Of a stretch of DNA of 37,060 nt, positions 4,110 through 37,060 are shown in pieces. Origin of the DNA: Clostridia bacterium (GTDB taxonomy: Bacteria > Bacillota > Clostridia > UBA1381). The translations under genes and the position numbers were made by a program. The stretch spans positions 1-37,060 of the forward strand of contig JAFSXU010000076.1 in assembly GCA_017443895.1 (NCBI GenBank). The letters run 5' to 3'. The notes beneath the pieces were generated by a model, which saw nothing but the letters and a program-made list of their open reading frames with translations, was not told where the DNA came from and did not search any database. How positions within the stretch are numbered: position 1 is the first letter of the stretch; every line of letters begins with the position of its first letter.

Positions 4110-4976
4110 ATGAAGGAGTATACAGTAGATAATCATGCATCTTCTTTTTTGCCTGAGGGCAAGGAATGGAAGCTTGCATGGAGTGATGAATTTGACGGAG
4201 AATGTCTTGATGAGAGCAAGTGGAATTACAGGCTGTATTTCTGGGGCAGAAAGTCGCCTACATTTACAAAAGAGGGCGTGGAGGTTGACGGAAAGAGTAA
4301 CCTGCATATAAAGCTTGTAAAAAAAGGCGACGATTATTTTTCGGGACATTTGCAAACAGCCTCTCTTACATATGATATTCCAAAGGACAGTGATGGATTT
4401 TGGCCGTTTGGTGAGTATGAGCCTGCAAAATTTATGCATAAATACGGATATTATGAAATACGATGCCGATTACCTAAAAATCCGGGTTGGCATGCTGCAT
4501 TTTGGTTACAGGCACCGGGCATAGGCTCAACACCTAATCCGGAGGAATGCGGAGTTGAAACCGATATAATGGAGAATTACAAACAGCATACCGACGGAGT
4601 GATACTTTGCGGAAACGGATACAACGGCTACGGTAAAAATTCGGTATGGCCGGGACATTTCAAGCACCCATATAAAGAAACAGCGGACGGATGGCATTAT
4701 TACGGTGTTGACTGGAACGAAGACGGATATACCTTCTATGCCGACGGTGAAAGGGTGGGTTTTCAAGGTAAGCCTGACAGTGCGGTATCACATACGGAGG
4801 AGTTTATAGTTGTAAGCACGGAATGTCATGGGTATCACAGGGTATTTGGCGAGGAATACGGTTTTGACGGACATGGCAAATTGTGGGCGTGCAGACCTGT
4901 TGAGGCATTAAAAAGGGCAATTCTCCCGGATGAATTTGTAGTTGACCATGTAAGAGTTTTTGATGAGGTAAAGTAA
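4110..4976 (+). CDS. Intracellular GH16-family glycoside hydrolase
   Basis: A 288-residue protein with the GH16 catalytic signature E-x-D-x-x-E: E150, D152 and E155 in GVETDIMENY. E150 is the expected nucleophile and E155 the acid/base. The flanking segments WSDEFDG (24-30), KYGYYEIRCRLP and GWHAAFWL (127-133) are also typical of GH16 jelly rolls. There is no signal peptide, unlike most GH16 endo-enzymes, so it should act in the cytoplasm on imported oligosaccharides. The family covers beta-1,3- or beta-1,4-glucan and galactan cleavage; the specificity cannot be told here. It is the first gene of the operon divergent from the AraC regulator, one base before the next start. Confidence 0.85.
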   Translation: MKEYTVDNHASSFLPEGKEWKLAWSDEFDGECLDESKWNYRLYFWGRKSPTFTKEGVEVDGKSNLHIKLVKKGDDYFSGHLQTASLTYDIPKDSDGFWPFGEYEPAKFMHKYGYYEIRCRLPKNPGWHAAFWLQAPGIGSTPNPEECGVETDIMENYKQHTDGVILCGNGYNGYGKNSVWPGHFKHPYKETADGWHYYGVDWNEDGYTFYADGERVGFQGKPDSAVSHTEEFIVVSTECHGYHRVFGEEYGFDGHGKLWACRPVEALKRAILPDEFVVDHVRVFDEVK

Positions 4977-7051: not shown

Positions 7052-8377
7052 ATGAGCGATAGAAGAAAGGTTTTGGAATTATTTGAAAAGAACAAGGACT
7101 ATATGAATGAGCGTATCGATAGCGGTATAGAGCAAAACCGAAAGGGATATGCCCAAATTACCGTTAAGGATAAAAATAAAAATCCTGTATCGGGTGTAAA
7201 AATGGCAATAAAGCAGAAAACGCATGAGTTTAAATACGGGGCAAATCTGTTTATGCTTGATGAGTTTGATACACAGGAGAAAAACGAGCTGTACAGAAAA
7301 TATTTCAGGGAAGCCTTTAATATGGCAACACTGCCGTTTTATTGGGATGCAACGGAGCCTGAATGTGGCAAAACGAGGTATGCAAAAGACAGCGAAAAAA
7401 TGTACAGGCGTCCTGCTATTGATTTATGCATGGAGTTTTGCCAAGAAAACGGTATCGAACCCCGCGAACATGGCCTTGCGTATGAGAAATTTTTCCCAAA
7501 ATGGCTTCATAATGCGAGTGTGAGGGAGATAAAGCTTGCTCTTGAAAAACGGTTTAGCCAAATATCAACTCTGTATAAGGACAAAATCCCGACCATTGAG
7601 GTAACAAACGAAATGGAATGGCGTGACGGCGGAGTTACGGCATTTTATACCGAGCCTGATTATATAGAGTGGTGCTTTAAGCTGGCGGAAAAGTATTTTC
7701 CTGCAAATGAGCTTGTTATAAACGAGTATTCGTATCTGCCGTGGACTGACAGATGTATGACAACGGATAAATACTATTCATATATTGAGGCGAATATGCT
7801 AAAGGGTGCAAGGATTGATGCGATAGGTATGCAGTACCATATGTTTATGCGTTCAGAAAACGAGTACGAGGGTACAAGGAATTATTACGATCCGATAAAA
7901 TTGTATAATCATATGGATTTGTATTCAAGATTTGGTAAGCCACTGCAGGTAACGGAGGTAACTATTCCTGCATATTCAAATTCACAAGAGGACGAAGAAC
8001 TTCAGGCAGAAATTATAGAAAAGCTGTATTCTATATGGTTTTCACACCCCAATATGGAGCAAATTATATATTGGAATTTGCCTGACGGTTATGCGGCATT
8101 TGCACCTCAGGGCGATATGACGGCAGGTGAAAATTATTTCCATGGCGGATTGCTAAGGTATGATTTAACGCCAAAGCCTGCGTATTATACAATCAAGGAA
8201 TTGTTTGGTAAAAAATGGCATACAGAGCTTGAAACTGCTACAAATGGGGAAGGCAAGGCAAGCTTTAAAGGCTTTTACGGTAAGTATGAAATCAAGATAA
8301 CCGCAGGGGACAAAACAATAGAGAAGGAACTTGATTTTAGAAAAAAGGGCTGCAAAAGTTTTGAAGTTATCCTCTAA
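7052..8377 (+). CDS. Intracellular GH10-family glycoside hydrolase (xylanase-like)
   Basis: A 441-residue protein. Residues ~30-60 form a short beta-rich lead domain (GYAQITVKDKNKNPVSGVK). The GH10 barrel follows: W99 (FYWDATEP), H140 (REHGLAY), N186-E187 (VTNEMEW) as acid/base, H263 (GMQYH), and E302 (QVTEVTIPAY) as nucleophile. The last ~60 residues are a beta-type tail (GKASFKGFYGKYEIKI). No signal peptide is present, so it should trim imported oligosaccharides inside the cell. The ribosome site AAAAAGGAG is nine bases before ATG 7052. GH10 usually cuts beta-1,4-xylan or related beta-glucosides; with GH74 nearby, activity on a different beta-linked backbone is possible. Confidence 0.87.
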   Translation: MSDRRKVLELFEKNKDYMNERIDSGIEQNRKGYAQITVKDKNKNPVSGVKMAIKQKTHEFKYGANLFMLDEFDTQEKNELYRKYFREAFNMATLPFYWDATEPECGKTRYAKDSEKMYRRPAIDLCMEFCQENGIEPREHGLAYEKFFPKWLHNASVREIKLALEKRFSQISTLYKDKIPTIEVTNEMEWRDGGVTAFYTEPDYIEWCFKLAEKYFPANELVINEYSYLPWTDRCMTTDKYYSYIEANMLKGARIDAIGMQYHMFMRSENEYEGTRNYYDPIKLYNHMDLYSRFGKPLQVTEVTIPAYSNSQEDEELQAEIIEKLYSIWFSHPNMEQIIYWNLPDGYAAFAPQGDMTAGENYFHGGLLRYDLTPKPAYYTIKELFGKKWHTELETATNGEGKASFKGFYGKYEIKITAGDKTIEKELDFRKKGCKSFEVIL

Positions 8378-14570: not shown

Positions 14571-17132
14571 ATGAAAAAGATACTTCATATTTTGATAATA
14601 TGTTCACTTCTGTTTTCGCTTGTACAAGTTCCGAATGCATATGCAACGCAGGGTCAAGGCGAGGAGTATGCTCTTTTAAAGGACCTGAAAATTGTAAGAG
14701 ATAATGCGGATTTTAACGAACAGCTCTCTGCTGAGGATTTGGCAAGAATGGTTGTTATGCTTCAAAGCTATGGTAAGACTGATGAAAAGGCGGATTTTTT
14801 GCAGACTGCGAAGAATTACGGTTTATTAAGCGACAGCATAAAGGCACCGCTGTCTTTGGACACCGTTACTTTAGCTTTGGTAAAAAGCGTGTATGGAAGA
14901 CTTTGTGAGAATAAAACCGATCGGGAGATTATAGATTTTGGCTCAATTAACGGAATTTATAAGTCGGTTAGGATAGTAGACAGTAACGACCTCACGCTTG
15001 GCGAGGCAGCAGGGCTTGCAAGGAACATCCTTGATATGGACAGTGTTGTTTATGACGGAGACTCATACAAGCTTGACAGTAAAACCGTACTTGAAGAAAA
15101 TTTTGAGATTGAGTACAAGGACGGAGTTTTGTATACGGGAAAAATGCGTGGCTTTTCTGACGGTCATGTAAGCATAGATAACGAGGTATACGATACGGAC
15201 AAAGATTATACCGAATACGGCGGATATATGGTTCGAGCTTATGTAAGAGACGATGAAATTATAAGCATAGACACTCAGAAGTTTCAAAACGATGTCTATA
15301 TAATTTCAGCAAATGATATAGACGGCGTTACCTCAGACAGTATTACATTCTATACAACAAGGGACAGTAAACAAAAGCTTTTGATTGATTTACAGTCAAA
15401 GGAGATATATAACGGACGGCTGGTTGATTTTAACTATAACGATATGGATATATCAAACGGCTATATAACGCTGATAAGGCACCCCGGGAAAAATCGCTAT
15501 AATGTAATCGTAATAAATCAATACGATATTATGGTTGCGGGCGGTGCAGGAAATAATATGATTTACGGCTTGGAGGGTGCAGGCATTACCGTAAAGCTTG
15601 ACCCTGATACCATTAAGACAACTATAACTCTTGACGGAGAAGAGGTCCCGGTTACGGAAATAAAAAAATATGATGTTTTGACTTTAAGCTATACTCGGCA
15701 AAAGGACGAGCTTGATATCGAGATTGTTCGTAACACCGTTACAGGTACACTTGATATGTGGGGCAAGGATACGATAAAGCTTGGCAGAAAAACCTATATA
15801 AAAACCGCATATTTTAAGCAGCACGCAAAGCAATCAGAGTTAGGAAGTGAGGTAGAGCTTCTTCTTGATAAATCAGGGCTTGCGGTTGATATAAAGCATG
15901 TAGGAAGCAAGAACAGGTATGGATATTTTATGGGTATGTATTATGACAGTGCATATGAAAGATATAATATCCGAGTTCTTACCGATAATGGAGAACGAGA
16001 GCTTCTTACCTTAAAAGATAAGGTTATCATTAACGGCAGAAGTACGAAAGTCGGCAGTGATGATGACAATGCGATACAAAAGGCGTTTAAAACTCTTATT
16101 GAACTTGATATAAACGGAAATAGAACTCAAAGAACAGTTAATGACTATGTATATCAGATGATAATTTTCAGAACCGATTCAAATGATGAAATTCAGTATA
16201 TAGATACTGCAATTGAAGAGGAGTACGAGGACGATGACGAAGAGCTGAAGCTTGAAAAATATATTGACAAGAATATAAAGTATAAATCAGGTGCGGCACA
16301 GTTTATCGACTCGTTTGGTATAACCGGTGACGGCACGGTAATATTCAGAGTTCCTGCAACTGACAATGTTTTTGACGCAAGCGGAAACCTTGACGAGGCA
16401 AAAAGAGCCCTTGCAAACAGGAACAAGCATTATGAGGTTGTTGCTCCGGGCTTTATAAAGAATGATGCCAAGGTTATGATAAGTGCGTATAACATTTCAA
16501 GAGGCGGACTTGCAGAGGCTACGGTTTTATATAATGAGGATTTAACAACGGAGGCAGAATTTAAGGATACATCTATGCCACTGTTTGTTGTAACGGAGGT
16601 TATGAAGGGTCGTGATCCTGAGGGCGATCCGTGTTATGTACTTGAAGGCCTTGAGAAGAATGCCAAAAAGCGGTATTACATCAAGGAAGAGGAATTTGGC
16701 AGAAAAGAGAATGGCAGTGACGGTAAGGTTTATCCGCAGGAAAATGACATTATGCAGATAAAAGCGGATTCTGACGGAATAGTTTTAAGCTATACAACAC
16801 GCTATAGCAGAAATGATAACATAAGCTATTACGAAAGATCGTATGACGAGGCAGAATTTGGATGCATGAGCGGATATGTAACCGATAAGGACGAAAACGG
16901 CTTTAAGTTTATGAGCACATTCCTGACGGGAACAACAAAAGAGCGTACTGCTATGAATAAGGGCGTAAATGCATATTATATATACGATGTCGGAGCAAAG
17001 ACCATGCGAAGCGGAAGTATTCAGGATATGATAGCAAAGGCTGATTCAAGATACAACCCGTCGCAGATATTCTGTACATCTTCATTCGGTGAGGTACGGC
17101 AGGTTATTATATATGTGGATAAGGAGGAATGA
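14571..17132 (+). CDS. Large secreted protein of unknown function, possible degenerate SLH N-terminus
   Basis: An 853-residue protein with a clear signal peptide, cut probably after AYA at residue 25. I do not recognise the main body: it is beta-rich with many short charged strands, no catalytic motif that I can see, and an acidic stretch at about 545-560. The first ~160 mature residues contain segments such as LSAEDLARMVVMLQSYG, LSLDTVTLALVKSVYG and LTLGEAAGLARNILD, spaced like the helices of three SLH repeats but lacking the usual ITRAE signature. It could be a degraded wall-binding region. It lies between the importer and the GH74 gene, and its last codons carry the AAGGAGG site of the next gene. 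A surface structural or glycan-binding role is only a guess. Confidence 0.6.
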   Translation: MKKILHILIICSLLFSLVQVPNAYATQGQGEEYALLKDLKIVRDNADFNEQLSAEDLARMVVMLQSYGKTDEKADFLQTAKNYGLLSDSIKAPLSLDTVTLALVKSVYGRLCENKTDREIIDFGSINGIYKSVRIVDSNDLTLGEAAGLARNILDMDSVVYDGDSYKLDSKTVLEENFEIEYKDGVLYTGKMRGFSDGHVSIDNEVYDTDKDYTEYGGYMVRAYVRDDEIISIDTQKFQNDVYIISANDIDGVTSDSITFYTTRDSKQKLLIDLQSKEIYNGRLVDFNYNDMDISNGYITLIRHPGKNRYNVIVINQYDIMVAGGAGNNMIYGLEGAGITVKLDPDTIKTTITLDGEEVPVTEIKKYDVLTLSYTRQKDELDIEIVRNTVTGTLDMWGKDTIKLGRKTYIKTAYFKQHAKQSELGSEVELLLDKSGLAVDIKHVGSKNRYGYFMGMYYDSAYERYNIRVLTDNGERELLTLKDKVIINGRSTKVGSDDDNAIQKAFKTLIELDINGNRTQRTVNDYVYQMIIFRTDSNDEIQYIDTAIEEEYEDDDEELKLEKYIDKNIKYKSGAAQFIDSFGITGDGTVIFRVPATDNVFDASGNLDEAKRALANRNKHYEVVAPGFIKNDAKVMISAYNISRGGLAEATVLYNEDLTTEAEFKDTSMPLFVVTEVMKGRDPEGDPCYVLEGLEKNAKKRYYIKEEEFGRKENGSDGKVYPQENDIMQIKADSDGIVLSYTTRYSRNDNISYYERSYDEAEFGCMSGYVTDKDENGFKFMSTFLTGTTKERTAMNKGVNAYYIYDVGAKTMRSGSIQDMIAKADSRYNPSQIFCTSSFGEVRQVIIYVDKEE

Positions 17133-17135
17133 TGA

Positions 17136-20100
17136 ATGATTAAAAAATTAACAGCATTTGTTGCATTCATTTCGATGCTTGTATCTTTTGTACCGGCATT
17201 TGCCGCAAGCGAGGGTATAAGCGGTCCGGATATTATAATAACCGATGTCCGCATAAACAACCCATATTTTACAAAGGGCAGCGATATACGCTTTGAGGTA
17301 GATATTCAAAATATCGGAAATGTAGTTTGTCCAAGCGGTTGGATGTGGGTAGAGGTAAAATCAGGCGCACAAAAGCGTACAGGCGGAACGGGACTCGGTA
17401 AATGGTCTAAAAAATCTCTCTATCCGGGCGAAAAAATAACATGGGCGCTTACCGATTATGTCGCAGAGGCAGAGGAAATAACGGCAGCTTTTAGATGTGA
17501 CTCGGCAGGCTCTGTGGCGGAAACAGATGAGAATAATAATACGCTTACAAAGGTGTTTAAAAAGCAAAAAAGTAATCCCGACCTTGTAATAACGGATTTT
17601 TCACTCAATGTTTCGGAATTTAAGGCAGGGGATCTGGTAGCTGCCAATGTCAAGCTTAAAAACAACGGAAATGTTGATATTCCGTATTCTGAGATTGAAG
17701 GCGAATTGAATATCGGCAAGTATTTTAAGGAATTTAAAACCGTACAGGAGATAAGTGCGGGCGAGGAGGTAAAATTCACTATACCCGATATTAGTGTTCC
17801 TCAAAATCCAATGCCGGTTGAAATACTCATAAACCCCGAAAAGAAAATCACAGAGGTGGATTATTCAAACAACACACTTAAAAAGGATATATATTCAATA
17901 GAAGAAACAGAGTATGCATGGGATCATGTGAGAATAGGCGGCGGAGGCTATGTCCCGTATATGGCGGTACAAAGCTATGACCCCGACGCTGTATACATCG
18001 CCACAGATGTCGGCGGTGCGCTAAGATACGATTCATCGTTGGACGAATGGATCCCCATTACCGACGGGCTTATGTATCAGTGCAATAACTACCGTGGCTG
18101 TGCAGGTATTGTAACGGACCCTGATGACTCGAATATTGTATATCTTATGACGGGTATGGGCAAATCAGGCTCGGAGGGCCTTGCAAAGTACAGCGGAGTT
18201 TTCAGAAGTATGGATAAGGGTAAAACCTTTACCGATATGCATATTCCGCCGGGAGATATAAATGCTTCGGCACTCAAAGGCTATAAAGCGTTAATGGCGG
18301 TTGACCCAAACAACACAAATGTACTCTATGCTGTATGCCCTTATGACGGACTTTACAGAACAGAGAATGCAAAGGATAAGGTTCCCAAATGGGAAAAATT
18401 AAATGTTCCCGATTTTGTACCGTCAGCGGACAATAACGGACTTATGATAAGTGTTACAGTAGACCCGACAAGGGTTTCGGGCGGGAAAAGCTCCACAGTA
18501 TATGTGTCCACGATGACAGGCGGAATTTATAAATCCGAGAACGCAGGCGCAAGCTTCACACTTTTAGAGGGTAGCTCACTAAAGTGCAAGCAGATGAAGG
18601 TTTTATCAAACGGCGAGCTTTACGCACTTGTACCAATGGCAGACGGCGGTTTGGTCAAGTTTGACGGAAACGAATGGACATCAATTGCTCCATATAAGGA
18701 CAGGGAATACACCTGCTTTGATGTAAGCCCGTTTGATGAGAATACCCTTGTGATATCGTCATCATACGATATACATTATTCGGATAACGGCGGACTTACA
18801 TGGCGTTCAACGGCACTGAGGTCAGTTTCAGACCATGAGTTTGAAGCCCCGTGGCATGTTGATTCAAAATACGCAAATAACATAGGCTTTGTATACTTTG
18901 ACCGTGTAAACAACCACAAGGTATGGTTTGGCGACTGGTTCGGAGTATGGATAACCGATGATATTTCGTCCGACAGAGTAAAGTGGAGAAGTAAGGTAAA
19001 GGGACTTGAGGAATTTTGTGCAAGGAATATAATGCCGACAACGGGCGAGGCAAGGCTTTTTGTAGGAGCAATGGATAACTGCGGAGTAACCTCAACCGAT
19101 GTTTTCGAGTTCCCCAACGAGGGCTTTACAAATCCGAAATATCAGGATACAAACTGTATTGACTTTGCCGAGAAAAATCCCAATATAGTTGCAAGAATAG
19201 GCGGAAACGGCTGGGGCGCAAAGGACGGAAACGGCGGATATTCATTAGACGGCGGTTTTACATGGGAGCCGTTTGAAACTTATCCGCTAAAGCTGAACAA
19301 TTCCGGAGATAAGGCAAATAACGGCTACCTTGCTGTTGCCGCAGAGCCAAGCGATAACGGAAATGCAACCATACTTGCAACACCGATAAAGCATTTTGTG
19401 TATAGAACTACCGATTATGGCAAGACATGGACAAAAGTGGAGGATCTGCCACAGAATTTGTATGCCGACTTTAACGATTATAATGATCCTATCGAGGCTG
19501 ACAGTGTAAATAAAGATGTATTTTACGCATATGAGGCGGCTACAGGTAACTTTTATGTAAGCCGTGATAACGGAGTAACATTTGCCAACATATCTAAATT
19601 GCCAAAAGCTGACAGACGGCACTATATCCTATCGGTACCCGGAAAAGAGGGCGCAGTATTTGCGGCAATCGGCAGGACAGGACTGTGGTATAGCTCAAAT
19701 TACGGCAAAACCTTTGACAGGATACCTACCGTAAACGGTCTTGAAGTATTTTCAATAGGAAAAGAGTCGCCAAAATCGCAGTATCCGACACTTTATATCT
19801 ACGGAGATGTAAACGGAGTTGAGGGATATTACAGAAGTACGGATTTTGGAAAGACTTGGGAGAAGATAAGCGAGATTATCCCCGATGCGGTTGAGGCACC
19901 GTGGCAGTTAAAGGCAGACAGAAAGGATTTTGGCATATTCTATACGGTTACGGGCGGTAACGGCGTAAATATTGCAATACCTAAGGGACTTGATATAAAA
20001 GTGCCTGAGGTAGTTATTAACTCAAAGCTTAACGGACAGATTGTCCGTGATAATCCTTATACCATAGAGGGAACTGTTACGGAGAGCGCAACGGTTTATC

Positions 20101-21368
20101 TGAAGGTAAACGGTAAGAGCTATGAGGCAAAAACAGATGCAAATAATAAGTTTAAAATACCTGTAGAGCTTTCAGAGGGTGAGAACACTATGGTTGTGTC
20201 GGCGGTTGATGATGCGTCATTGCCGTCAGGCGAGCAAGCATTTTCATTTACATACGATCCGTCATATATAGGACTTAGCTTAGACCAGTCAAGCGGATTG
20301 TGTATGGAAAAGGAATTTACTCTTACAGGCTCAGTAAGTGTATTGAACGAGAATAACAAGGTTTTAATAAACAACAATGCAGTAAGCGTAAATCCAAAGA
20401 CAAAGAAGTTTGCATACACATCACCTATCCACGAGGGTATAAACAAATTCGATGTAACAGCATACGATGATGCAGGAAACAAGGTAACAAAGTCGGTTGA
20501 GATGAATTATGATGTAACACCACCGTCTGTAAGCTTTAAGAATGCAGGAATTGTAACAGACAGTCCTCTTTATCTTCTTGAGGCAAAATTATCAGAGGCA
20601 TGTACGATAACGGTTGAGGATTACAGTATATCCGTACAGCCGGGTGAGGCACTTGATGTATCCTTGCCGATTGAGCTAAATGCAGGAGTTAATAACTTAA
20701 AGGTATCGTTAAAAGACCCTGCAGGCAACACCTCACAAACTCAGGTAAGTGCGGAATACAAGCCAAAAGAGTTATTGCCAAGCAGTAAAGACGAGGTTAT
20801 GGTTTATAATACATCCGCATCAACACCTGTTATTGACGGTGAGATAACTGACGGAGAATGGTATTTAAACAGGGTTGCAAACAGACTGCTTAGCGGTAAC
20901 ACAAAATCGTATGCATTGTTTGGTTTAAAGGGCGACAGTAAATATCTCTACTTTGCGGCGAAGGTTTGGGACGATAAGGTAACCTTCGGAACAGGCAAAG
21001 ACCATGATGCCGACAGTGTGGAGCTGTTCTTTGACCCTGAATTAAACCGTGCCACAAAGTTTGACCCGACAGACCATCAGGTTCGTTTCGGACTTTCGGA
21101 CAATACGGTATTCGGTGTGGTAACGGGTACGGAGGAAGATGTCAAAATGGCATATTCACTTACAGATTACGGGTATATTGTTGAGGCGGCACTGCCGTGG
21201 AAAGCAGTTGATGTAAAGTACTTCCAAGGAGCAAAGATAGGCTTTGATGTTTCTATAAACGATAACTCGCAAGGTGAGGGACAGAGCCGTGACGGCGCTT
21301 ACGGCTGGCGAGGCACAGCGTATAACTATAACAACACCGCAGATTACGGAACGGCGATAATGCAGTAA
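17136..21368 (+). CDS. Secreted multidomain GH74-type hydrolase: CARDB2-GH74-Ig3-CBM9
   Basis: 1410 residues. There is a signal peptide (1-24, AFA-AS), two CARDB-type beta domains (about 30-140 and 148-250), and a GH74 double propeller (about 261-955) opening with IGGGGYV. It has eight Asp-box turns such as DYGKTWTKV and DNGGLTWRS. Three Ig/glucodextranase-B-like domains (957-1208) and a CBM9-like C-terminus (about 1222-1410, IDGEITDGEW to TAIMQ) follow. D291 (ATDVGGA) and D647 (AMDNCG) fall where the two catalytic aspartates of GH74 are expected. Known GH74 enzymes are mostly xyloglucan endo-hydrolases. A perfect AAGGAGG lies eight bases before the start, within the preceding gene. The specificity could differ, since no alpha-xylosidase is nearby. 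Confidence 0.85.
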   Translation: MIKKLTAFVAFISMLVSFVPAFAASEGISGPDIIITDVRINNPYFTKGSDIRFEVDIQNIGNVVCPSGWMWVEVKSGAQKRTGGTGLGKWSKKSLYPGEKITWALTDYVAEAEEITAAFRCDSAGSVAETDENNNTLTKVFKKQKSNPDLVITDFSLNVSEFKAGDLVAANVKLKNNGNVDIPYSEIEGELNIGKYFKEFKTVQEISAGEEVKFTIPDISVPQNPMPVEILINPEKKITEVDYSNNTLKKDIYSIEETEYAWDHVRIGGGGYVPYMAVQSYDPDAVYIATDVGGALRYDSSLDEWIPITDGLMYQCNNYRGCAGIVTDPDDSNIVYLMTGMGKSGSEGLAKYSGVFRSMDKGKTFTDMHIPPGDINASALKGYKALMAVDPNNTNVLYAVCPYDGLYRTENAKDKVPKWEKLNVPDFVPSADNNGLMISVTVDPTRVSGGKSSTVYVSTMTGGIYKSENAGASFTLLEGSSLKCKQMKVLSNGELYALVPMADGGLVKFDGNEWTSIAPYKDREYTCFDVSPFDENTLVISSSYDIHYSDNGGLTWRSTALRSVSDHEFEAPWHVDSKYANNIGFVYFDRVNNHKVWFGDWFGVWITDDISSDRVKWRSKVKGLEEFCARNIMPTTGEARLFVGAMDNCGVTSTDVFEFPNEGFTNPKYQDTNCIDFAEKNPNIVARIGGNGWGAKDGNGGYSLDGGFTWEPFETYPLKLNNSGDKANNGYLAVAAEPSDNGNATILATPIKHFVYRTTDYGKTWTKVEDLPQNLYADFNDYNDPIEADSVNKDVFYAYEAATGNFYVSRDNGVTFANISKLPKADRRHYILSVPGKEGAVFAAIGRTGLWYSSNYGKTFDRIPTVNGLEVFSIGKESPKSQYPTLYIYGDVNGVEGYYRSTDFGKTWEKISEIIPDAVEAPWQLKADRKDFGIFYTVTGGNGVNIAIPKGLDIKVPEVVINSKLNGQIVRDNPYTIEGTVTESATVYLKVNGKSYEAKTDANNKFKIPVELSEGENTMVVSAVDDASLPSGEQAFSFTYDPSYIGLSLDQSSGLCMEKEFTLTGSVSVLNENNKVLINNNAVSVNPKTKKFAYTSPIHEGINKFDVTAYDDAGNKVTKSVEMNYDVTPPSVSFKNAGIVTDSPLYLLEAKLSEACTITVEDYSISVQPGEALDVSLPIELNAGVNNLKVSLKDPAGNTSQTQVSAEYKPKELLPSSKDEVMVYNTSASTPVIDGEITDGEWYLNRVANRLLSGNTKSYALFGLKGDSKYLYFAAKVWDDKVTFGTGKDHDADSVELFFDPELNRATKFDPTDHQVRFGLSDNTVFGVVTGTEEDVKMAYSLTDYGYIVEAALPWKAVDVKYFQGAKIGFDVSINDNSQGEGQSRDGAYGWRGTAYNYNNTADYGTAIMQ

Positions 21369-23983: not shown

Positions 23984-26518
23984 ATGAAAAGAAAGATTTT
24001 AAGCATGATTGTTTCAGCCATTATGTGTATATCACTTCTTCCTGCATTTGCATCTGCTGACGATGTTGTTGTAGGAAACGAGACTGTACGGTTTGAAGCG
24101 GAAAACTATGTTCCGGGCGGAAACCGTGTAGATGACGGTGATGCAAGCAAATGGTCAGGCGGAAAGGCAGCCGGTTCCATTGCCGTAAATGCGAGCATCG
24201 AGGTTGAAAATGCAGGCATATACGACATATCCGTTAAGTGGGGAAACAGATTTGGCGATAACAGAAATGTTGAGCTAAAGGTTAATGATACGGTGCTGTT
24301 TTCGGGACAGACAGGCATAACATATTCAACTGCTGTAAGAACATACACAGCAGAGCTTAATGCAGGTGTAAATACCATATCGGTAAGCTCACCCGATAAT
24401 GTTATGAGTAATTTCAGAATTGACTATTTTGAAATTTCCGTATCGGATGTTACGGTAATTAACGGCGAAACAGTAAGACTTGAAGCAGAAGACTATTGTG
24501 ACGGCACTGCCACAACAGAGGAGGATGCCAAATGGTCGGGCGGAGCGGTATTAAGATCAAAGCCTGTTAAGGCAACTGTTTATGTTGCTAAGCCGGGTGT
24601 ATACACGGTAAATGTAAGATGGGGAAGCAAATATTCCGATGCAAGAACGGTAGAATTAAAAATAGGCGATAATGTAGTGTTCTCGGGCGATACGGGAATA
24701 AGATATACTGCTTCTGTACAGTCCTTTGCGGTAGAGCTGAGTGCAGGGCTTAACGATATAACAATTACATCTCCTGCAAATAATCTCGGCAATTTCTATA
24801 TTGATTATATTGAGTTTTCAGCGGTGGAAAATCTTGTACAGTTACCAAAGGATTCAACAATAAAGATTGAAGCTGAGGATTATGCAGATGTAACACCTGA
24901 AACTATTTCCACATCGCATCAGCTTTCGGGAGGCTACAGAGTTACAAACGGTAACATTGAGGTAAATGTTTATGCCGAGGAGTCAGGTGTTTATCAAATC
25001 GTAGCCGCATGGGGGTCAAAGGACGGTAACTCTGCTCCTGCTGTACTGTTAGACGGTGTTGCTACAGATGTTAAATCAAGCTTGGCATATTGGAAATCAG
25101 CTGTTGCACACGGTAATGTTACACTAAAAAAAGGAATAAACAGTATAAAAATTGCAAAAGGCACAAAGCTTTGGGTTGACTATATAAAGATTTCGCCTGC
25201 ACCGATATTAACAGCAGGCAAAACCCTCCGTCTTGAGGCAGAGGACTATGCTACTGCAAATGCTTTAAGTACAAGATACTTCAGCGACACTACTGCATAT
25301 GCTTATAACAACAATGTAATAACGGCAGATTTTGCGGTTGAAGATCCGGGCGAGTATATCATGACTCTTGCATCAGGTGGCATGAGCGGAGACCGCCCTG
25401 CAATCTCAATAAGCATTGACGGAAACGAAGTTTTCAACGGCTCAAGCGGTGCATACACAAAGCTTGATGCGGCAGGTTTAACCGCAGATACAGAATGTAT
25501 CGGTTTAAATCAAACAAAGGTTACATTAAGCAGCGGTACGCATACAATGGTTATTACACCGGGACTTCATGCATTGGTTGACTATATTGAGTTTTCACAG
25601 CCTGCAAATTACAGTGAGGAATTATATCCTTACTATCTTTCAGCTGAAAATGTGGACAATGCCGAGTTTACAGGTGCTTTAACATCAACATACCTTGGTG
25701 CATATTCGGGTGATTATGACGAAACAATGTTAAATTCAGCGGTTAAGGCATTAGATGAGGATATGTCGTTTGTATACTGGCCGTTTACAACAACAGTTGC
25801 AGCAGACTACTTCTTAAAGGTTACATATGCATCAGAGGATAATTCAAAGGCTGCTTGTATGGTAGACCCACAGGTGTTACCTACGGTAACAGCCAAGGAT
25901 TATGCCACAGTTTCAGAGGGTGCGACAAAGGTTGTAAATGCAACATGGCAGCGGTCATACTCAAATGAAGAAGGCAAATTCAGCGCACCGTACTTTACAG
26001 AAAAGTATTTTAATGTAGGAACACTGTTGCCGGGCGACCATAATTTCCTGTTTATGTATAATCCTGCAGACGGCGAGAACAGGGGCGTTTCAATAAGAAA
26101 GGTTGAGCTTATAAGCAGGGATTTATTAGAGGAAGGCTTGGTTTCTACAGAGGCGCAGTTTGCAGCAGAGGCTATAGGCAATGACGCATCAACAGCAGAG
26201 CTTGCAGCCACTGTATCACAGGCAAATACATATTCGTCAGAGTCTGTAAATGAGGATGATAAGAATAAGACAACAGTTATAAAGCATGTATATAACAATT
26301 CTGATGAAACTGTAGCTTTTACATTTATTGCGGCCGCATATGATGTAAGCGGAGTGCCTGTAGGCTTTGGTATGAGCGAAAATTATACTCTTGGCAAGGG
26401 CGCAGAGGCAGATATCAAGGTCAGAGTAAACACAGACGGAGCAAGCTATGTAAAGACATACGGCTTTAATATGGAAAATCTGAAGCCAATCCTTGAGTGT
26501 GAGCTTTTCGGTAAATGA
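23984..26518 (+). CDS. Secreted protein with four CBM6/35-like modules
   Basis: An 844-residue protein with a signal peptide (1-26, ASA-DD). Four tandem beta-sandwich modules start with xRxEAExY and end with xDYxExS: about 32-152, 159-280, 293-405 and 415-539. This is the CBM6/CBM35 pattern of calcium-bound glycan-binding domains. The rest (540-844) is unassigned beta structure ending in a domain with YGFNMENLKPILE. No catalytic module is visible in the protein as read. It stops at TGA 26516-26518, but the frame stays open into the GH74 gene that follows, so it may be the N-terminal part of a once larger enzyme. Confidence 0.8.
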   Translation: MKRKILSMIVSAIMCISLLPAFASADDVVVGNETVRFEAENYVPGGNRVDDGDASKWSGGKAAGSIAVNASIEVENAGIYDISVKWGNRFGDNRNVELKVNDTVLFSGQTGITYSTAVRTYTAELNAGVNTISVSSPDNVMSNFRIDYFEISVSDVTVINGETVRLEAEDYCDGTATTEEDAKWSGGAVLRSKPVKATVYVAKPGVYTVNVRWGSKYSDARTVELKIGDNVVFSGDTGIRYTASVQSFAVELSAGLNDITITSPANNLGNFYIDYIEFSAVENLVQLPKDSTIKIEAEDYADVTPETISTSHQLSGGYRVTNGNIEVNVYAEESGVYQIVAAWGSKDGNSAPAVLLDGVATDVKSSLAYWKSAVAHGNVTLKKGINSIKIAKGTKLWVDYIKISPAPILTAGKTLRLEAEDYATANALSTRYFSDTTAYAYNNNVITADFAVEDPGEYIMTLASGGMSGDRPAISISIDGNEVFNGSSGAYTKLDAAGLTADTECIGLNQTKVTLSSGTHTMVITPGLHALVDYIEFSQPANYSEELYPYYLSAENVDNAEFTGALTSTYLGAYSGDYDETMLNSAVKALDEDMSFVYWPFTTTVAADYFLKVTYASEDNSKAACMVDPQVLPTVTAKDYATVSEGATKVVNATWQRSYSNEEGKFSAPYFTEKYFNVGTLLPGDHNFLFMYNPADGENRGVSIRKVELISRDLLEEGLVSTEAQFAAEAIGNDASTAELAATVSQANTYSSESVNEDDKNKTTVIKHVYNNSDETVAFTFIAAAYDVSGVPVGFGMSENYTLGKGAEADIKVRVNTDGASYVKTYGFNMENLKPILECELFGK

Positions 26519-26545
26519 AGGGCACAATCCGCTAAGGTGAGCAAT

Positions 26546-28591
26546 ATGAGGCTTGACGGCGGCGGATATGTAACAGCAATTATACCGCATAATGACGGTA
26601 CAATGTACGCCCGTACCGATATAAGCGGAATGTTTAAGAGGAATGCAGACGGGTCATGGACGCAAATGTTTGATTTTCTGAAAAATTCAGAAATGAATTT
26701 AATGGGCGTCATCGGTATGGCTATAGCACCGCAGGACTCAAACACAGTTTATGCCGCGGCAGGTCAGGTATCGTCAAAGAACGGCAATACTGTAAATGGC
26801 GAGGTATTTAAAACTACCGACGGCGGTAAGACTTGGAAAAAGGCAGGACTGTCAAAACCGTTCGGAGCAAACGAGGCAGGTAAAATATGCGGTGAGGTGG
26901 TTGCAATATCACCGTATGATATAAACACCGTATATGTACTTACAAAAACGGACGGTCTATGGAAAACCTCTGACGGAGCAAAAACATGGCAGAGCGTTGA
27001 GAGCTTCCCCTCATCAAGTGTAAACGGTGGCTTTGTAGAGTTCTCCAAAACCTCTGCTGACACTGTTTATGTAAATATAACAGGCGAGGGAATGTATAAA
27101 TCTGACGATAGTGGTAAAACATGGGCTTTAACGGCATCAACTCCTAAAAATTTAAGACGGGTTGCACAGAAAGCTGACGGAGAGCTTTTGTGTTCTGCAG
27201 ATGACGGAATTTACCGTTATAAAAATAATGTATGGAGCTGTATTTATCAGCGTGATGTGTCAACTTCGGGTGTGCGTGCGGGAATAAGCGGTATTGATAT
27301 AGACCCGTATAATGAAAAGCATATTGTTGCCATAACCTCATTAGGCAGCGATGGAAGTACAGGACTTGGCAATAACCATATTCTTGAATCCTATGACGGC
27401 GGAAATACATTTACCGACAGATACGATGACCATAACAATAGCACAAACTACAATTTTATAAATTCATCTGTATTTGTAAATCAGTTTACAAGCGCATCGT
27501 CAATTGTATTTGACAGGCAAAGATCGGGAGTTGTATATATTTCCGATTGGTACGGAGTGTTTGAAACAGGGAATATACAGAATAAGCCGATTTCTGTTAT
27601 CAGATCGTCAAAGGGTATTGAAAACACTCTTTCATATGCGGTAAAGGCAATACCCGGCGAATATTCGCTTATGGCAGGCTTTGCAGATGTTGGCGCTATG
27701 GGCTGGAGTAATACCGGTGCAATGGCGCAGAAAATGAAGTCGTCAAATACCGATATTCAGGACGCAACCGAGTTTGACTACTGCGAAAAGCACCCTGAAA
27801 TGATAGTTCGTGTCGGCGCATATCATAAGGACAGTAACGGAAATAAAAATGCAGGTCTTGCAGCAACTGCCGACGGCGGAAAGAATTGGGTATCGGCAAC
27901 CTTGCCCGAAGCATGGACACAGGGCCTGGGTGCAACAATACACATCGGACCGCATGTTGCATTGTCTGCGGATATTAACACGCAGGGTTTCCCGACAGTT
28001 GTTATGACAGGCAATGACGGAGTATATTACAGTGACGACTGTGCCGATACATGGTCAAAGTCAAGCGGTGTAACATACAAAGCTCATGGCTTGTGGGTAT
28101 ACAATACACCGTTGGTATCTGACAGGGTGGAGAATGGTACATTCTATTTGTGTCAGGATAACAACTTCTATGTAAGCCGTGACGGTGGAAAGTCTTTTGA
28201 AGTGTACAATTCAAATGTACCCGATGCACAAAGGTATATACAGCTTGTTGCATCACCGAATGAAGCAGGTACGCTTGTTTTAACAACGGGCAAGGGCGTG
28301 TACATAACAAAGGATTACGGTAAAACCTTTACAAAGACGGGTAACTTTGTTGCTCCTAAAAAATCGGCATTCGGAAAAGGCGAATTAAATCCGATACTCT
28401 ATGTATTTGATATAGACGATGCACATTCGGGACTTTATATGTCCCCGAATATGGGCGAGGATTGGTTAAAGGTAAAGACACAGAATAATAATTTCTGCGG
28501 AATTACCGATATGGACGCTGATAAGGTTACAGAAGGACTTGTATACATTTCAACAAGCAACAGAGGTGTGTTCAGCCTTAGTATTAAGTAA
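26546..28591 (+). CDS. GH74-type hydrolase without signal peptide
   Basis: 681 residues from ATG 26546; a GTG at 26537 is in frame. AAGGTGA (26534-26540) sits just before ATG 26546 as a ribosome site. The protein opens directly in the first propeller blade (MRLDGGGYVTAI) and has about nine Asp-box turns such as TDGGKTWKK and RDGGKSFEV. D25 (ARTDISG) and D381 (GFADVGAM) match the two GH74 catalytic positions. No signal peptide is present, though GH74 enzymes act on polymers outside the cell. The frame is shared with the preceding secreted CBM protein across one TGA. The gene is therefore either a cytoplasmic oligosaccharide-active form or the catalytic half of a split secreted enzyme. Confidence 0.82.
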   Translation: MRLDGGGYVTAIIPHNDGTMYARTDISGMFKRNADGSWTQMFDFLKNSEMNLMGVIGMAIAPQDSNTVYAAAGQVSSKNGNTVNGEVFKTTDGGKTWKKAGLSKPFGANEAGKICGEVVAISPYDINTVYVLTKTDGLWKTSDGAKTWQSVESFPSSSVNGGFVEFSKTSADTVYVNITGEGMYKSDDSGKTWALTASTPKNLRRVAQKADGELLCSADDGIYRYKNNVWSCIYQRDVSTSGVRAGISGIDIDPYNEKHIVAITSLGSDGSTGLGNNHILESYDGGNTFTDRYDDHNNSTNYNFINSSVFVNQFTSASSIVFDRQRSGVVYISDWYGVFETGNIQNKPISVIRSSKGIENTLSYAVKAIPGEYSLMAGFADVGAMGWSNTGAMAQKMKSSNTDIQDATEFDYCEKHPEMIVRVGAYHKDSNGNKNAGLAATADGGKNWVSATLPEAWTQGLGATIHIGPHVALSADINTQGFPTVVMTGNDGVYYSDDCADTWSKSSGVTYKAHGLWVYNTPLVSDRVENGTFYLCQDNNFYVSRDGGKSFEVYNSNVPDAQRYIQLVASPNEAGTLVLTTGKGVYITKDYGKTFTKTGNFVAPKKSAFGKGELNPILYVFDIDDAHSGLYMSPNMGEDWLKVKTQNNNFCGITDMDADKVTEGLVYISTSNRGVFSLSIK

Positions 28592-28602
28592 AAAATTAAA
28601 AT

Positions 28603-28642
28603 AAAGAGCTCCTGCCACACTATTGTGGCAGGAACACTCTTT
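28603..28642 (+). terminator. Stem-loop after the second GH74 gene
   Basis: CCTGCCACA (28611-28619) and TGTGGCAGG (28624-28632) form a perfect nine-base stem with a CTAT loop. The outer AAAGAG (28603-28608) can pair with CTCTTT (28637-28642). The T run after it is short, so termination may be partial. It shares bases with the next hairpin. Confidence 0.6.
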
Positions 28643-36232: not shown

Positions 36233-37060
36233 ATGAAGAAAAAACTTATAAGTGCATTTGTTTCTGCGGCACTATTTGTAGCAACCCTACCTGCCATTGC
36301 ATTGGCAGATGAACCTGTTACCGTGCTTGATGGTAGAACCGTACGAATAGAGGCAGAGGATTATGTTGCAGCTGGTAATAAAGTGAATGACAGTGTGACC
36401 GGCAGGTATTCTAATGATAAGGCGGCAGGGAGCTGTGCGGTAAACATAAGCGTTAATGTTCCGGTTGCGGGAACATACACGATGGCAGTTGCTTGGGGAA
36501 ATCAGTATACAGATAATACCGGTTTTTCTCTTACTGTTAATGAGAATTTGATTTACTCCGGTAAGACCGGAAAAACATACGGTGCAGTTGCACAATGTTT
36601 TACGGTAGATCTTGATGCGGGTGTAAACACCATTGCAATAGCTCAGCCAAGTCAGGGAAGAGTGGATTATCTTGAATTTACTGTTTTAAATTCGGTTAAT
36701 ACTGTCAGACTTGAAGCGGAAGATTATGCAATTTCGAGAAGCGCATCGGATAAGGCCTCAAATGGCAAATTTGTAGGAAATAGCACATTTAGCACAAGCT
36801 TCAATGTTCCTGAAGCAGGTAAGTATATTATAAATCCGGCGCTGGGCACAAGCAGCGGCACTGGCGGATCTGTAACTATGCAGTTAGATAGTGGTGAGCC
36901 GATCGTGCAAACGGTGGACGCAACATGGGGAAGTTTTCGGAAAACCTATGAATATGAGGTTGAGTTACATAAGGGTATAAACACTTTTGCAGTAACGCAA
37001 AGTACAGCAAGAGTTGACTATATTGATTTTGTGCCTGTAGCAACACCAACACCAACACCA
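36233..37060 (+). CDS. Secreted protein with two CBM6/35-like modules and TP linker, 3' partial
   Basis: The frame starts at ATG 36233 after AAAGAAAGGAAG and runs open for 276 codons to the window end. A signal peptide (1-25, ALA-DE) is followed by two modules of the same type as in the four-module protein at 23984: residues about 37-150 (VRIEAEDY to VDYLEFT) and 158-269 (VRLEAEDY to VDYIDFV). A linker of repeated Thr-Pro starts at about 272. Such a linker normally leads to a further domain, probably catalytic, beyond the window. The shared upstream TTTAAAGAAAGGAA with the 23984 gene supports a duplicated expression unit. Confidence 0.85.
   Translation, partial: MKKKLISAFVSAALFVATLPAIALADEPVTVLDGRTVRIEAEDYVAAGNKVNDSVTGRYSNDKAAGSCAVNISVNVPVAGTYTMAVAWGNQYTDNTGFSLTVNENLIYSGKTGKTYGAVAQCFTVDLDAGVNTIAIAQPSQGRVDYLEFTVLNSVNTVRLEAEDYAISRSASDKASNGKFVGNSTFSTSFNVPEAGKYIINPALGTSSGTGGSVTMQLDSGEPIVQTVDATWGSFRKTYEYEVELHKGINTFAVTQSTARVDYIDFVPVATPTPTP

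Follow-up and report, generated by a model that had tools for sequence, protein, structure and literature searches.

The characterised GH74 enzymes act extracellularly (PMC4780118, PMC12710961), and in the xyloglucan system of Ruminiclostridium cellulolyticum a GH74 enzyme operates together with an ABC oligosaccharide importer and cytoplasmic hydrolases (PMC4780118). The locus described here lies in a window of 37,060 nt (the whole stretch of DNA that was analysed) from a Clostridia bacterium, and it resembles that system in combining these three components. However, the GH74 enzyme of R. cellulolyticum is extracellular and bound to the cellulosome (PMC4780118), whereas the window encodes one secreted GH74 protein (17136-21368) and one that has no leader. 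Comparison with the GH74 xyloglucanases of known structure (6P2M of Caldicellulosiruptor lactoaceticus, 1SQJ, which is OXG-RCBH, and 2CN2 of Clostridium thermocellum) reveals a full-length fold match of the leaderless protein (TM 0.85 to 6P2M), the GGGY motif and both catalytic Asp residues, but, unlike these enzymes, the protein is devoid of a signal peptide, and it is about 26% identical, in the structural alignment, to the closest of the solved enzymes. Xyloglucan-type loci of the same family (in genomes G011, G026 and G010) cluster ABC permeases, an SLH protein, GH74 and proteins with a particular C-terminal module, as is the case here, but in these loci every GH74 carries its own signal peptide. 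The features to which the text refers are the following.

17136-21368, + strand: GH74 paralogue with signal peptide, CARDB repeats, GH74, Ig-like and CBM9 modules; an example, within this locus, of the secreted form that is usual
23984-26518, + strand: secreted multi-CBM35 protein of 844 aa with signal peptide, four CBM35-like modules, a further segment and a C-terminal module (translation, Pfam, internal similarity)
26120-26515, + strand: C-terminal module of the upstream protein; 18 of 26 further copies in the family close their protein at the same point
26516-26518, + strand: TGA, interpreted as an ordinary stop codon
26519-26545, + strand: nine in-frame codons, RAQSAKVSN, probably a remnant of a mature N-terminus (alignment with relatives and structure model)
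26534-26540, + strand: Shine-Dalgarno-like AAGGTGA, 5 nt before ATG 26546
26546-28591, + strand: GH74 gene without signal peptide, with Asp 34 and Asp 390; most likely start ATG 26546, alternative start GTG 26537
28608-28635, no strand assigned: 12-pair hairpin directly 3' of the GH74 stop, called a terminator only on the - strand; the T run on the + strand is weak

One frame and one stop

Translation of positions 23984-28591 gives 844 residues up to TGA 26516-26518 and a further 690 residues up to the stop that ends at 28591, with no other in-frame stop, and thus bears out an earlier note on this DNA that had described one frame in which a single TGA, nine sense codons and a GH74 gene follow a multi-CBM protein. 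The nine codons between the TGA and ATG 26546 are AGG GCA CAA TCC GCT AAG GTG AGC AAT. Such an open frame speaks for two readings in which both parts belong together: a single ancestral CBM35-GH74 gene that was split at TGA 26516 by a nonsense mutation or a single-base error, and programmed or leaky readthrough of the TGA, by which mostly free CBM protein and a little secreted CBM-GH74 fusion would be produced. A sample of 325 kb from the genome that contains the window showed the layout with one frame and one stop in 9 of 80 close pairs (11%; neighbouring same-strand long ORFs with a gap of at most 60 nt), the CBM35-GH74 pair included. Frame continuity alone is therefore ordinary, and the frame shared by the two genes is not above chance but an ordinary coincidence.

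TGA terminates 47 of 210 long ORFs in the same sample, and its use as an ordinary stop argues against readthrough, as does the naturally C-terminal character of the last module of the upstream protein, which is detailed below. The best tRNA-Sec match in the genome (43.6 bits) fell below the gathering score of 47, with similarly weak matches in control genomes; no Rfam family matched in the window; and the RNA following the TGA folded only slightly, and not significantly, better than shuffled sequences (z -1.8). Readthrough, including selenocysteine insertion, was rejected on these grounds. No relative was found in which a CBM35 part continues across a stop into a GH74 part, and a literature search for readthrough that joins a CBM and a hydrolase yielded no case. 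Readthrough would offer an export route to a GH74 that otherwise has none, but we consider it exceedingly improbable, and would say the same of a more elaborate scheme with three products from one frame, in which a regulated leaky TGA would yield the CBM scaffold in free form and small amounts of a secreted CBM35-GH74 fusion, in addition to a cytoplasmic GH74 initiated at ATG 26546.

The upstream CBM35 protein

The signal peptide and four binding modules that had been read from the upstream sequence were recovered: CBM_35 exceeded the Pfam cut-off in two stretches (PF16990, 54.4 bits versus 28), and CBM35-like repeats 3 and 4 were recognised through internal similarity. Twenty-six further copies of the last 132 residues exist in the family. 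In 18 of these 26 the protein ends no more than 7 residues from the point that matches TGA 26516, and in the remaining 8 the module is internal. That so many copies end their proteins at the matching point marks the TGA as the natural C-terminus, and the CBM35 protein is, judging from this comparison of sequences, complete as it stands.

The position of the TGA exactly at the usual end of this module also weighs against the split of a single gene, and a random stop within about 1535 residues would rarely hit the short gap between two complete domains. Modules of other kinds do precede GH74 in a few proteins of the family, for example in the paralogue at 17136-21368 and in G010, and a relative with a long N-terminal part before GH74 that was scanned has Ig-like modules there. 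GH74 joined to CBM35 modules was found in none of the relatives in the family and the phylum, either among the GH74 matches or among the matches of the C-terminal module, and in several GH74 relatives the same kind of module is placed after the GH74 domain, not before it. The earlier note had stated that a relative whose GH74 has its own signal peptide would argue against a split single gene, and at the family level this was observed: the relatives encode GH74 in a gene apart, complete with signal peptide. Taken together with the open frame and with a GH74 that has no leader of its own, these observations leave the split of an ancestral gene improbable.

The C-terminal module itself (26120-26515 and about 26 family loci) is recurrent and apparently un-named; it closes many large secreted proteins of the family, and its copies end in motifs such as FVWDSLNGMKPL.

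The GH74 domain

Matches of GH74 domains to the beta-propeller families Sortilin-Vps10 and PSII_BNR are common markers of this family, and both Pfam families were found in the downstream part. The solved structures nearest in sequence are the GH74 enzymes 1SQJ and 6P2M. An AlphaFold model of the downstream protein (pLDDT 85, 12 relatives in the input alignment) exhibits the tandem beta-propeller fold expected of GH74, and the 25 best matches in the PDB all belong to GH74. With residues counted from AGG 26519, the counterparts of the catalytic Asp 35 and Asp 465 of 1SQJ are Asp 34 (YARTD) and Asp 390 (GFADVG), and both are conserved throughout the relatives. The downstream protein is thus predicted to be catalytically intact and to hydrolyse the xyloglucan backbone, in agreement with the catalytic GH74 without signal peptide that had been proposed from the letters alone.

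Inspected by eye, the alignment suggests that the protein encoded by 26519-28591 has neither the exo-loop insertion nor the Trp pair associated with processivity that PMC4780118 describes; this would suit a non-processive enzyme acting on short substrates. A Trp at residue 7, conserved in 12 of 12 relatives, is lost, and relaxed constraint before the ATG was considered as an explanation. It was dropped, because departures from conserved columns are much alike in this GH74 (26 of 92) and in its paralogue at 17136-21368 (31 of 106).

Start codon and ribosome site

As the earlier note had suggested, AAGGTGA provides ATG 26546 with a ribosome site of its own. Pairing of the anti-Shine-Dalgarno sequence with the 20 nt 5' of this start codon has a duplex energy of -8.5 kcal/mol, a value that 46% of 122 presumed starts attain, compared with 3.9% of 665 internal ATGs, so that the site surpasses 96% of the latter. 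The site of GTG 26537 is much weaker (-4.9). The strength of the site at ATG 26546 speaks for a putative GH74 gene that is real and has real initiation, and so good a site 3' of the TGA is a further point against the splitting of a single gene. The gap of 27 nt between the stop of the CBM35 gene and the ATG is typical operon spacing, and the hairpin at 28608-28635 possibly represents the end of the transcription unit.

The missing leader

An export signal is usual in bacterial members of GH74, although not strictly defining. Before the GH74 domain at 26546-28591 the translation contains no in-frame leader, and no alternative leader was found in the other two frames around 26300-26700. Signal peptides were called by eye in the relatives, where they either immediately precede the GH74 domain or open the protein: each of the 13 GH74 relatives whose N-terminus is readable has one of its own, the leader-bearing proteins being those of G011, G026, G010, G244, G021, G791 and G830 and the window's own paralogue, and no second leaderless GH74 was found among the relatives examined. 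A literature search for GH74 without a leader gave nothing direct. A genus-level orthologue search returned no match in the other four genomes of the genus, a close copy being present only in the window's own genome; the best matches in the family, class and phylum have 29-39% identity, and a scan of genome contigs detected one distant Bacteroidetes match only.

The similarity to GH74 begins at residue 7, three codons 5' of ATG 26546, and hence upstream of the ATG, as had been noticed before. VSN of RAQSAKVSN aligns with WSN or WKN of GH74 relatives, AQS resembles the start of the mature protein in two relatives (AQSEYAW and AQSYQW), and in the AlphaFold model residues 2-9 form the beta strand with which the propeller begins, a placement that is favoured by the input alignment. 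RAQSAKVSN would thus probably be the mature N-terminus that was left after removal of a spacer, a ribosome site and a signal peptide, and the similarity before the ATG resembles such an N-terminus after leader loss rather than the linker of a former fusion. It looks as if the signal peptide was lost, either in a real event that would have left a cytoplasmic GH74, or in the assembly or by a strain-specific deletion.

The latter two sources belong to a rival reading, which also assumes two cistrons and in which the leader is missing through a deletion in the assembly, from a mixture of strains or recently in the cell, while the true GH74 gene, or its ancestor, would be like those of all relatives, with a normal spacer and ribosome site and a signal peptide. 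The 13 of 13 signal peptides, the likeness of RAQS to the two mature N-termini and the state of the genome, a draft of 77 contigs, are in line with this. On the other hand, a random deletion would not be expected to place a strong Shine-Dalgarno site and ATG at the junction, given the 3.9% of internal ATGs mentioned above, and no second version of the junction was found elsewhere in the assembly. We regard a deletion of this kind as unlikely, but less so than the split of a single gene.

Two probable cistrons on one message

Taking all versions of the reading together, it is very likely that the two cistrons are translated separately; of the options raised in the earlier note, separation is supported by the Shine-Dalgarno site, the position of the TGA and the relatives, whereas nothing was found in favour of readthrough or of a gene that was once single. 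The specific version in which GH74 is initiated separately, is leaderless and is probably cytoplasmic is the one we favour, with fair confidence. The first cistron would encode a CBM35 protein that is secreted, has no catalytic function and terminates in the normal way at TGA 26516-26518. Translation of the second would begin 27 nt further on, at ATG 26546, with a Shine-Dalgarno site of its own and possibly with the assistance of ribosomes that finish the CBM35 gene. Because it has no signal peptide, the catalytically intact GH74 product should remain in the cytoplasm, where it may cut imported xyloglucan oligosaccharides; it would descend from a secreted GH74 by loss of the leader. Several findings count against separate initiation of a leaderless enzyme: every other GH74 found carries a signal peptide, the characterised enzymes are extracellular, a start at ATG 26546 omits residues 2-9 and thereby the modelled first strand of the propeller, the in-frame codons before this ATG are GH74-like, and no close orthologue was found that would show the layout to be stable.

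An attractive case for readthrough or a split gene is thus set aside for lack of support, and the remaining oddity is a GH74 without an export signal beside a secreted GH74 paralogue. If real, the leaderless GH74 would represent intracellular cleavage of the backbone of xyloglucan oligosaccharides, of which no description was found in the GH74 literature searched.

The GH16 (4110-4976) and GH10 (7052-8377) proteins of the window also start without a signal peptide; cytoplasmic hydrolases would therefore be normal in this locus, which suggests cytoplasmic processing. The 853-residue protein encoded at 14571-17132, next to the GH74 paralogue, has an apparent signal peptide and no Pfam or NCBIfam match, and a weak relative (22% identity) adjoins GH74 genes in G026. 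A second protein with a signal peptide and tandem CBM35 modules is encoded at 36233-37060, where it is truncated by the end of the contig, and has 37% identity to the first 288 residues of the protein that starts at 23984.
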